Positions 28,882 to 30,897 of a stretch of 37,391 nucleotides of DNA are shown one piece after another. The DNA is taken from NCBI GenBank assembly GCA_013519935.1, contig JACDUA010000045.1, positions 1 to 37,391 on the forward strand, in the 5' to 3' direction. The DNA is from Ectothiorhodospiraceae bacterium WFHF3C12 (GTDB lineage: Bacteria; Pseudomonadota; Gammaproteobacteria; Nitrococcales; Nitrococcaceae). The notes beneath the pieces are model-generated. The model was not told the DNA's origin. It worked only from the letters and a program-made list of their open reading frames with translations, and did no database searches. The stretch's first letter is position 1. Each line of letters opens with the position of its first letter. A program made the translations under genes and the position numbers.

Positions 28882-28911
28882 CCGACACCCTTGCCCGGTC
28901 CCGAGGATACT
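28882..28911 (+). promoter_or_regulatory. Candidate promoter of the attenuated EamA transcript
   Basis: CCGACA (28882-28887) and GATACT (28906-28911) are 18 bases apart and match the sigma-70 hexamers at 4 of 6 positions each. A start near 28918 would place the short Trp-containing reading frame at the head of the transcript. This is a modest match, supported mainly by position. Confidence 0.35.
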
Positions 28912-28926
28912 GTCATTCTGATCTGC

Positions 28927-29022
28927 ATGATGCCGGAGCGGATGCGCGGATACTATCGACTGATCGAGCCGCGACTGTGGTGGTGCCTTCCAACCATCGC
29001 GGCCATGCGTCGTCGTCCCTGA
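28927..29022 (+). CDS. Candidate Trp leader peptide, 31 aa (26 aa from the inner ATG)
   Basis: Short reading frame with tandem Trp codons TGGTGG at 28978-28983 (peptide ...EPRLWWCLPTIAA...), ending in TGA at 29020. Starts available are ATGs at 28927, 28930 and 28942; the last has GGAG closely upstream. Both Trp codons lie inside a hairpin that overlaps an antiterminator arm, the geometry of trpL. As in enterobacterial trpL, the antiterminator arm begins about 14 bases after the second Trp codon. The product itself is expected to have no function beyond timing the ribosome. Confidence 0.7.
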   Translation: MMPERMRGYYRLIEPRLWWCLPTIAAMRRRP

Positions 29023-29077
29023 ACCGGCAGGACAACACGCTTAACCAACGGCCGCGACCCCGCGGCCGTTTTCGTTT
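28968..29077 (+). promoter_or_regulatory. Tryptophan-type transcription attenuator
   Basis: Three competing pairings are visible. 1:2: GCCGCGA (28968-28974) with TCGCGGC (28997-29003), extended by the Trp codons TGGTGG (28978-28983) against CCAACCA (28990-28996). 2:3 (antiterminator): TCGCGGCC (28997-29004) with GGCCGCGA (29050-29057). 3:4 (terminator): AACGGCCGCG with CGCGGCCGTT, then TTCGTTT. A ribosome stalled at the Trp codons would cover arm 1, free arm 2 and let transcription proceed into the EamA gene; with charged tRNA-Trp the terminator forms. Inferred from sequence only. Confidence 0.72.
29047..29077 (+). terminator. Intrinsic terminator of the attenuator
   Basis: AACGGCCGCG (29047-29056) and CGCGGCCGTT (29061-29070) form a perfect 10-bp stem with a 4-base loop, followed by TTCGTTT. 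It stands 60 bases before the EamA start and downstream of the Trp-codon leader, not after a normal gene. It therefore acts conditionally. Confidence 0.85.
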
Positions 29078-29136
29078 GACCCCCTGCATTACCCACGCCG
29101 CGGGCGTCGCCGCCGCAACCCGGGAGGAACGGGCCC

Positions 29137-30084
29137 ATGGAGGATCGACGGCCATACGGCGCCGGACTGGCCCTGGTGGCGGCAGGGGTTGCCCTGCTCT
29201 CGCTCAAGGGCATCGTCATCAAGCTCAGCTACGCCCTGGACATAGACGCGGTATCGCTGCTGCTGCTGCGTCTGGGCATCGCCCTGCCCGTGTATCTGGT
29301 GGTGGCGCGCTTTGCCGGCGCCGGCGGCGAGCCGCTCAGCCGGCGCCAGTGGCTGGGCGTGGCCGGCTGTGGCCTGCTCGGCGCCTACTTGGCCAGCATC
29401 CTCGACTTCTGGGCGCTGCAGTACATCACGGCGAGCCTGGAACGGCTGGTGCTATATGCCTACCCGACCCTGGTCCTGCTTTTCAGCCGCATCCTCTTCG
29501 GCCGGCGCATCCGGCGGTCGGACCTGGCGGCGCTGGCGCTGGCGTACAGTGGTCTGGCACTGGTCTTCGTCCAGGATGCCCGGCTCTACGACCTGGAGGC
29601 CACGGCGGTCGGCACCGCCTTGGTGCTGGCCAGCGCGGCGGCCTATGCGCTGTTCCTCGTCGGCAGCGGCGAGCTGATTCCCAAGCTCGGCTCGGTCCGT
29701 TTCACCGCCTACGCCATGATCGCGGCCGCGGCCGGCATCGGCGTGCATTTCGCGCTGGCCCGGCCCACGGCCATCGCCACGCTTCCGGCAGAGGGCTTCG
29801 CCCTGGCCGGCTTTCTGGCCGTGGCCTGCACCCTCGCTCCATCGTTCCTGATGTCCGCGGGATTGGGACGGGTTGGCGCCGCGAACGCCGCCATGGTAGG
29901 CATGATCGGACCGCCGGTGACCATTGCCGCCGCTCACTTCGTTCTGGGCGAGGCCGTGACGTGGCGCCACGGCGTGGGCACCGTGCTCATCATCGCCGGC
30001 GTGCTGGGCGTCACCCTGCGCGGAAGGCGGCGCGCGGCAGAGACCGCGGCCGCGCCGAGGGAGCGCGCGGCGGAGCCGGAATGA
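29137..30084 (+). CDS. EamA/DMT-family transporter, 315 aa
   Basis: Inner-membrane permease of the drug/metabolite transporter superfamily with about ten helices arranged as two EamA repeats (about residues 8-140 and 155-290). Repeat two contains SAGLGRVGAANAAMVGMIGPPVTIAAA and ends with an Arg/Ala-rich cytoplasmic tail. Members move amino acids, nucleotide sugars or other metabolites; the E. coli aromatic exporter YddG belongs to the same superfamily. The upstream Trp-type attenuator points to tryptophan or a related compound as substrate. Induction on Trp starvation would fit uptake better than export. Start ATG has GGGAGGAA upstream. Convergent with the HNH gene, 13 bases apart. Confidence 0.88.
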   Translation: MEDRRPYGAGLALVAAGVALLSLKGIVIKLSYALDIDAVSLLLLRLGIALPVYLVVARFAGAGGEPLSRRQWLGVAGCGLLGAYLASILDFWALQYITASLERLVLYAYPTLVLLFSRILFGRRIRRSDLAALALAYSGLALVFVQDARLYDLEATAVGTALVLASAAAYALFLVGSGELIPKLGSVRFTAYAMIAAAAGIGVHFALARPTAIATLPAEGFALAGFLAVACTLAPSFLMSAGLGRVGAANAAMVGMIGPPVTIAAAHFVLGEAVTWRHGVGTVLIIAGVLGVTLRGRRRAAETAAAPRERAAEPE

Positions 30085-30097
30085 GCACGGGTCCGCG

Positions 30098-30694
30098 TCA
30101 GCGCCGGCCCAGCCTGCCGTGCAGCGGGCTGCGGCGGGGAAAATGCGCGCGCAGGAAGGCCATCTGGTCGGCGAGGATGCGCCGGCCCTGCAGGTAGACG
30201 TATTCCGCGTGGGTGGGCGTGAACGGCACCGCCAGCAGCTCCATGCCGGCCTGCTCCGGGGTGCGGTTGCCCTTGTGGTTGTTGCAGCGCTTGCAGGCGG
30301 TGACCACATTGGCCCATACATCATGACCGCCCCGGCTGATCGGGCGGATATGGTCCCGGGAGAGCTCGGAGACGCGATGCCGGGCCCCGCAGTACATGCA
30401 GATGTGATCGTCGCGGCGAAACAGGGCCATGTTGTTCAGCGGCGGGATATAACCCGGCCGGCCCTTGAGCGAAGCCTGCAGGCTACCCTCGGTGGCGACT
30501 ATGGAATTGACGTCGATGGCGCTGCGCCGGCCCGTTAGGGCGTTGTAGCCGCCGTGCACCCGATACAGCAGCTTGCCGCATGTGTAGACCACCTGCTCGA
30601 GATAATAGAGCCGGACGGCGTCCTGATAGGTGATCCACTCCAGCGGCATGCCGGAGATGTCGGTTCGCAGAATGTGATGGTCAGCGGTCAGCAC
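30098..30694 (-). CDS. HNH endonuclease family protein, 198 aa
   Basis: HNH nuclease fold protein of a chromosomally common bacterial type. The C-terminal half (about residues 95-145) has a zinc pair CMYCG (Cys99/Cys102), the HNH core SRDHIRPISRGGHDVWANVV (catalytic Asp-His at 114-115), and the second zinc pair ACKRCNNHKGN (Cys134/Cys137). The N-terminal half (ISGMPLEWITYQDAVRLYY) is typical of the subgroup often annotated simply as HNH endonuclease. I chose the GTG at 30694 with GGGAG seven bases upstream; an ATG at 30754 would add 20 residues that look non-coding. No restriction, toxin or defence neighbour is present, so its role is unclear. Confidence 0.85.
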   Translation of the reverse strand: MLTADHHILRTDISGMPLEWITYQDAVRLYYLEQVVYTCGKLLYRVHGGYNALTGRRSAIDVNSIVATEGSLQASLKGRPGYIPPLNNMALFRRDDHICMYCGARHRVSELSRDHIRPISRGGHDVWANVVTACKRCNNHKGNRTPEQAGMELLAVPFTPTHAEYVYLQGRRILADQMAFLRAHFPRRSPLHGRLGRR

Positions 30695-30897
30695 GGGAAA
30701 ACTCCCACTCGTTGCGCCGCGCATCCGCATCGGCCGCGGCCCACCGGAAACCACGCCGGGACTGAGCCGGCCACGATTTCCTCGATGGATTTATTCCATA
30801 GAAACAGCCTACAACGCAACTCTTACACCCCGCTGACGGCAACGCGGCGGGTCGGTGCCGCGAAGGACCGCTCCGTTGGCCCGCGGATCGGCCTTGA

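Follow-up and report, generated by a model that had tools for sequence, protein, structure and literature searches.

A predicted tryptophan attenuator upstream of an EamA-family transporter gene and of related genes in other families

The gene coding for an EamA/DMT-family transporter on the 37,391-nt stretch of contig JACDUA010000045.1 of Ectothiorhodospiraceae bacterium WFHF3C12 analysed here (the window) is preceded by a short open reading frame with two adjacent tryptophan codons and by a putative intrinsic terminator. E. coli trpL, the classical attenuator of the trp operon, has a short Trp ORF and alternative RNA arms of this kind, and we asked whether the transporter gene may likewise be controlled by the supply of charged tRNA-Trp. 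The elements identified in the window are the following.

28914-28919, + strand: candidate -10 box CATTCT, with TTGCCC 17 nt upstream (28891-28896) and the leader ATG 7 nt downstream
28927-29022, + strand: leader ORF of 31 codons and TGA, MMPERMRGYYRLIEPRLWWCLPTIAAMRRRP, at a position comparable to that of leaders before EamA genes elsewhere
28968-28974, + strand: arm 1, GCCGCGA, pairing with arm 2; the Trp codons prolong the stem
28978-28983, + strand: tandem Trp codons TGGTGG, read directly from the sequence
28997-29004, + strand: arm 2, TCGCGGCC, partner of arm 1 or, as antiterminator, of arm 3
29047-29057, + strand: arm 3, AACGGCCGCGA, with arms 2, 4 or 5 as alternative partners
29061-29070, + strand: arm 4, CGCGGCCGTT; 3:4 and the U-tract TTTTCGTTT reaching 29077 form the predicted intrinsic terminator
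29069-29077, + strand: U-tract UUUU-CG-UUU, UUUUCGUUU, the terminator tail
29101-29115, + strand: arm 5, CGGGCGTCGCCGCCG, complementary, with mismatches, to arm 3 and the loop (29049-29062)
29122-29129, + strand: Shine-Dalgarno region of the EamA gene, GGGAGGAA, from sequence
29137-30084, + strand: EamA/DMT-family transporter gene, 315 aa (Pfam EamA 94 bits, cut-off 28.2), the putatively regulated gene

The short frame with its TGGTGG pair was found as the original prediction had described it, and folding returned all three of the stems that it had named. The 1:2 stem comprises 7 bp (GCCGCGA 28968-28974 with TCGCGGC 28997-29003) and is prolonged by pairing of UGGUGG with CCAACCA, the 3:4 stem comprises 10 bp (AACGGCCGCG 29047-29056 with CGCGGCCGTT 29061-29070), and both occurred in the same fold; the 2:3 stem of 8 bp (TCGCGGCC 28997-29004 with GGCCGCGA 29050-29057) emerged once arm 4 was omitted. 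The U-tracted terminator, which had been placed about 60 bases before the permease gene, is also present, with the EamA start (29137) located 64 nt past the UUUU run. A further pairing of the window, 3:5 (CGGCCGCGACCCCG with CGGGCGTCGCCGCCG, mismatched), was stronger than in shuffled sequences (-24.7 versus -16.0, p=0.002), and the distance from the end of arm 5 to the EamA start codon is about 20 nt. The upstream neighbour of the EamA gene is a divergent phospholipase A gene, and the downstream neighbour is a convergent HNH-endonuclease gene (Pfam HNH_5; 30098-30754, minus strand).

Comparison with shuffled sequences indicated that the fold of positions 28960-29077 is unusually stable (z -3.6; 0 of 200 shuffles equally good). 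The effect was weaker for 28928-29077 (z -2.0; 7 of 200) and for the stretch spanning 2:3 (z -2.6; 5 of 200), and the 1:2 stretch alone was not special (z -0.9; 36 of 200). As a duplex, 2:3 of the window gave p=0.08 against shuffles, and 5:6, in which arm 5 pairs with the ribosome binding site, lacked significance there (p=0.61). When both strands of the window were searched for a Trp-pair ORF followed by a terminator and 2:3 complementarity, this locus was the sole match, and the same rule found 0 matches in 30 dinucleotide-shuffled windows. In equilibrium folding of the window the terminator reached 0.96 whether arm 2 was free or not, so antitermination there would need kinetic control.

To place the locus among its relatives, EamA homologs were surveyed in 1379 genome look-ups, many genomes being consulted more than once. 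None of the 22 other genomes searched of the window's family carried a homolog at E 1e-20, hence no close relative of the window was available for comparison; better homologs were found in other families than in the window's own, and no relative was found in viral contigs. Leader ORFs with Trp codons were identified before related EamA genes at 46 loci, the window included, from 17 families, 16 of them gammaproteobacterial (with that of the window) and one, f218, from another class. The 46 loci comprise 24 gammaproteobacterial loci (with the window), L132 and all 21 readable f218 loci, 20 of which were scored by script and one (L153) by eye; L133 ends at a contig edge and is unreadable. As picked, the leader ORFs span 18-38 codons with 1-3 Trp codons each, and code for peptides such as MLKNTQKIKARIKLWWLAGPYGFLR, MDNFHSNQISQNKPLWWLNASHGRC and MNNANDIQSRSSLWLWRHSVRRSGCVFM or, in f218, MNDMKCNFCVNERWWWQHHITRGLPSFVFN. 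Two f218 leaders have three Trp codons, consecutive in L158 (RWWWQHH) and spread in L134 (WLWLFW). Trp was 3.8-fold above shuffles in the 24 gammaproteobacterial leaders, although these were chosen by eye for Trp codons and their Trp content is therefore selected; the shuffle and exchange tests of the arms described below ignore the Trp codons.

A mechanical rule that is blind to structure (an ATG-initiated frame of 17-33 codons, suitably spaced from the gene, in which codon 7 or a later one is Trp) was satisfied at 23 of 30 clade loci versus 1.5 expected from shuffles, the clade of 31 loci having been defined after the leaders were seen and the leader-bearing L100 having been dropped for its short upstream DNA. 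Among other EamA homologs the rule was satisfied at 4 of 48 loci versus 2.9 expected. This recurrence supports tryptophan as the signal, as had been proposed from the window sequence. On the protein tree the leaders were clustered (18 of 62 rows, with L080 included; 8 changes versus 15.8 shuffled), and on a larger tree, from which L154 was omitted and in which many close f218 rows boost the clustering, they were present in 45 of 97 rows with 11 changes versus 32.4 shuffled. L080 was subsequently rejected as leader-bearing, as it sits in a paralog group without leader and has no matching hairpin, and it does not enter the other counts given here. On the larger tree, the clade holding all leaders also contains 29 rows of 74 without a leader (e.g. 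L050, L052, L055, L062, L109 and L110), indicating repeated loss or gain of the leader. The window EamA protein forms a long branch of unsure placement. Of 76 genes located next to leader-bearing ones, 51 were unrelated to any other, and the biggest cluster had 5 members.

All 17 leader-bearing member proteins tested matched Pfam EamA. They share the DMT superfamily with the aromatic amino-acid exporter YddG, as does the window EamA protein, but score far under the NCBIfam YddG cut-offs: the window protein did not reach the equivalog cut-off (39.6 bits versus 300), and weak matches far below it were obtained for 16 of the 17 members. A profile of the 17 proteins matched chain 5i20_A (E 4e-6), which is labelled uncharacterized and which we take to be a YddG structure. 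Tryptophan itself is at best a speculative candidate for the transported substrate.

The pairings were then compared across the 24 gammaproteobacterial leaders by means of duplex energies against dinucleotide shuffles of one partner, a test in which the hairpin of L048 was misassigned. The 2:3 pairing gave a Fisher p of 1.5e-10 (below 0.05 at 12 of 24 loci), 3:5 gave 9e-26 (20 of 24 loci, the window among them) and 5:6 gave 1.4e-4 (8 of 24 loci); the mean duplex strength was -21.1 for 3:5 versus -17.1 for 2:3. When partners were exchanged between loci, 0 of 20000 exchanges reached the observed mean for 2:3, 3:5 or 5:6, both raw and composition-corrected, the correction having been applied because raw exchange may profit from shared base composition. 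For 1:2 the corresponding counts were 13 of 20000 raw and 115 of 20000 corrected.

Covariation was analysed on 20 f218 rows using structures drawn from the single row L141, a choice that raises the pairing percentages. Of the 8 pairs in 2:3, 5 had changes on both sides, as had 7 of the 13 in 3:5, values reached by 0 of 500 shuffles in either case. For 3:4 the count was 6 of 13, a value attained by 4 of 500 shuffles, although a structure slid by one column covaries nearly equally. Covariation of 1:2 was weak and not clear, and 5:6 showed none above shuffles (91% paired, 0 pairs changed on both sides). RNAalifold, run on the f218 alignment without a given structure, recovered 2:3 in part (5 of its 8 pairs) along with a 3-pair hairpin; neither 3:4 nor 3:5 was predicted. 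The parts of the element therefore recur and covary across loci: the mutually exclusive pairings 1:2, 2:3 and 3:4 are conserved, 1:2 less strongly than the others, and the expectation that homologs would keep the Trp codons together with compensatory changes in the stems was borne out by 2:3, which persists with altered bases.

Arm 5 is found in most leaders. Across the 24 loci the distance from the end of its best pairing to the start codon is 11-29 nt, the search having stopped 10 nt short of that codon, and at 4 of the 24 the pairing was not significant. Examples of 3:5 are, in L100, GCTGCGGATCTC with GAGATCCGTAGC and, in L102, GGAACTCA with TGAGTTCC. Pairing of arm 5 with the ribosome binding site is possible at several loci, such as L051 (CAAGATCC with GGATCTTG) and f218 (TTGCTCC with GGAGYAA). 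The Shine-Dalgarno sequence or start codon of the EamA gene was seen to be complementary to arm 5 at L051, L111, L049, L101-L103 and the f218 loci, and the ribosome binding site may thus be sequestered by default. A U-tract following 3:4 was recognised by eye in 8 of the 24 leaders and was absent from the other 16; by sequence, then, 3:4 is a predicted intrinsic terminator in the window and at seven further loci. Freeing arm 2 in equilibrium folds weakened the 3:4 hairpin at 14 of 24 loci and strengthened it at 4 (p=0.018). Access to the ribosome binding site did not differ between the stalled and released states over the 24 loci (opening energy p=0.93), and equilibrium folding gave no sign, in the window or in the 24 loci, of a site that is more open upon stalling.

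Analysis of the regions upstream of the leader ORFs revealed a TTGACA/TATAAT-like pair with at least 9 of 12 matches at 19 of 24 loci versus 1.8% of base-shuffled upstream regions; the window reaches only 7 of 12 (p=0.12), a weak match. The leader ATG lies 6-8 nt past the best -10 box at 21 of 24 loci and a Shine-Dalgarno-like motif precedes it at 2 of 24, and for these reasons the leader mRNA is probably leaderless in many loci, starting at or near its AUG. According to PMC7298713, the trpL mRNA of Sinorhizobium meliloti starts at the ATG of its Trp leader ORF. The spacing at these 21 loci resembles the start described there for the trpL-trpE(G) attenuator, which differs from the present leaders in that it controls trpE(G) and not a transporter, and in the bacterial class concerned.

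Taken together, these data make it probable that the element is a ribosome-mediated tryptophan attenuator of the EamA transporter gene, which would be ON when charged tRNA-Trp is scarce. We infer the stalling, the direction of the response and the termination from classical attenuators. RNA polymerase would initiate at or near the leader AUG and, with charged tRNA-Trp in short supply, the translating ribosome would stall at UGG UGG on arm 1; 2:3 would then pair, the 3:4 terminator would fail and EamA would be transcribed. With plentiful tryptophan the ribosome would reach the stop codon, 1:2 would form or arm 2 would be covered, and 3:4 could form so that transcription would stop near 29072-29077. 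Induction by Trp shortage would most simply suit an importer of tryptophan or of a related compound.

The reading of the locus as a Trp-type attenuator, supported by the Trp leaders and by 2:3 covariation in other families, was incomplete as originally put forward, since arm 5, the likely control at the level of translation and a start that is probably leaderless were not part of it. In most leaders arm 3 and its loop could pair with arm 5 before the ribosome binding site, and in some of them arm 5 could itself pair with that site, so that one and the same decision may govern its accessibility as well. We infer from this a second, translational layer in which 2:3 would withhold arm 3 from 3:4 until arm 5 has been made, and 3:5 would then free the ribosome binding site. 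As 16 of the 24 leaders are devoid of a U-tract, control of translation is more likely for these and would be their main control. An order of events in which 2:3 holds arm 3, arm 5 takes over and the ribosome binding site is freed is preferred because its sign agrees with that of the terminator-bearing forms.

Could the forms without a U-tract respond with the opposite sign? Tryptophan in plenty would there mask arm 2, let 3:5 pair and open the ribosome binding site, and the product would be an aromatic amino-acid exporter like YddG. Both 2:3 and 3:5 compete for arm 3 and the latter is stronger on average, the 5:6 pairing exceeds partner exchange, and 16 of the 17 members match the YddG model weakly, all of which fit such a scheme. 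However, the YddG matches are far under the cut-off, 3:4 with a U-tract would turn the gene OFF with tryptophan in the 8 terminator-bearing leaders, and two contrary responses within one transporter group are improbable; we consider this scheme unlikely. Less likely still is that the leader peptide arrests the ribosome in response to a different compound, in the manner of TnaC or of drug-sensing leaders, with the Trp codon as part of an arrest motif and not as a sensor of tRNA charging. A single Trp codon, often beside Leu (LW), is indeed found in 10 of the 24 leaders, but other leaders carry WW, WLW or WWW, the C-termini differ in length and sequence and, by inspection, only Trp and the start stand out as common to the peptides.

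Trp-pair ORFs are common in this GC-rich DNA (25 in the window versus 8.8 per shuffled window, nested starts counted), and an ordinary terminator could by chance stand beside a meaningless short frame. The whole arrangement was absent from the shuffled windows and recurs with covariation in 17 families, and chance is refuted at the family level by shuffles, partner exchange and covariation; we regard it as very improbable. We retain the attenuator that is ON when charged tRNA-Trp is scarce. A wider claim, to which we give an even chance, is that a regulator widespread in at least two classes of Pseudomonadota, with a leaderless Trp ORF and five to six arms, controls both termination and access to the ribosome binding site, arm 3 passing from arm 2 to arm 5 upon stalling, and that the terminator was kept or lost by lineage while the arm 5 layer was kept. 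The attenuator itself would tie an uncharacterised branch of the EamA/DMT proteins to tryptophan and so provide a testable substrate or stress, and ribosome-mediated Trp attenuation, besides acting on enzyme genes, would be shown to reach a transporter gene in many lineages. The forms with and without U-tract, sharing arm 5, would then represent a natural experiment on attenuation shifting between transcription and translation.

Comparison with known systems showed that the leaders have in common with E. coli trpL the short Trp ORF, the 1:2, 2:3 and 3:4 arms and, in 8 of 24, the U-tracted terminator; they differ from it in preceding an EamA transporter gene instead of one for a trp enzyme, in the extra arm 5 before the ribosome binding site and, in 16 of the 24 gammaproteobacterial leaders, in being without a U-tract. 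Rfam scans, which took in 35 of the 46 leader loci with E up to 1 or 5, gave no match to Trp_leader (RF00513) in the window; the best score among the leader loci was 23.5 bits (L005) versus a threshold of 41, and no T-box was matched in the window or the leader loci scanned. TnaC-type peptides have conserved arrest residues besides Trp; inspection of the listed leader peptides found Trp alone in common. A known Rfam family, a T-box and a TnaC-type leader thus found no support in these scans and in the peptide comparison. The EamA/DMT protein YcbK of Bacillus subtilis is encoded in the T-box-controlled rtpA operon. In PMC13170310, PMC3971595 and PMC11255114, ycbK is described as a putative efflux gene whose translation is repressed by TRAP. 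On that description it is the nearest regulatory parallel, a putative efflux gene under translational Trp control, with the difference that ycbK relies on the TRAP protein and a T-box and the present leaders would rely on a translating ribosome and RNA arms. In searches of open-access papers, PMC2965389, PMC2494555 and PMC8632094 being among those consulted, no title or abstract described such a leader.

The trpE genes of the window's family were also inspected. By eye, no Trp leader with a terminator was seen upstream of trpE in the window genome. Short ORFs that carry a single-Trp RWR motif close to their end (e.g. MDRDTTTRILCQQGISGRWRG and MRLTVTTYDNDAQQALHERWRPYR, each followed by a stop codon) are located about 130-200 nt upstream of trpE at L018 and likewise at L019, L025, L026, L033, L038 and L039. 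Outside genus g2, 7 of the family's 9 trpE loci have such an ORF, against 0 of 13 g2 loci; no obvious terminator accompanies these ORFs, which may represent another type of Trp leader.
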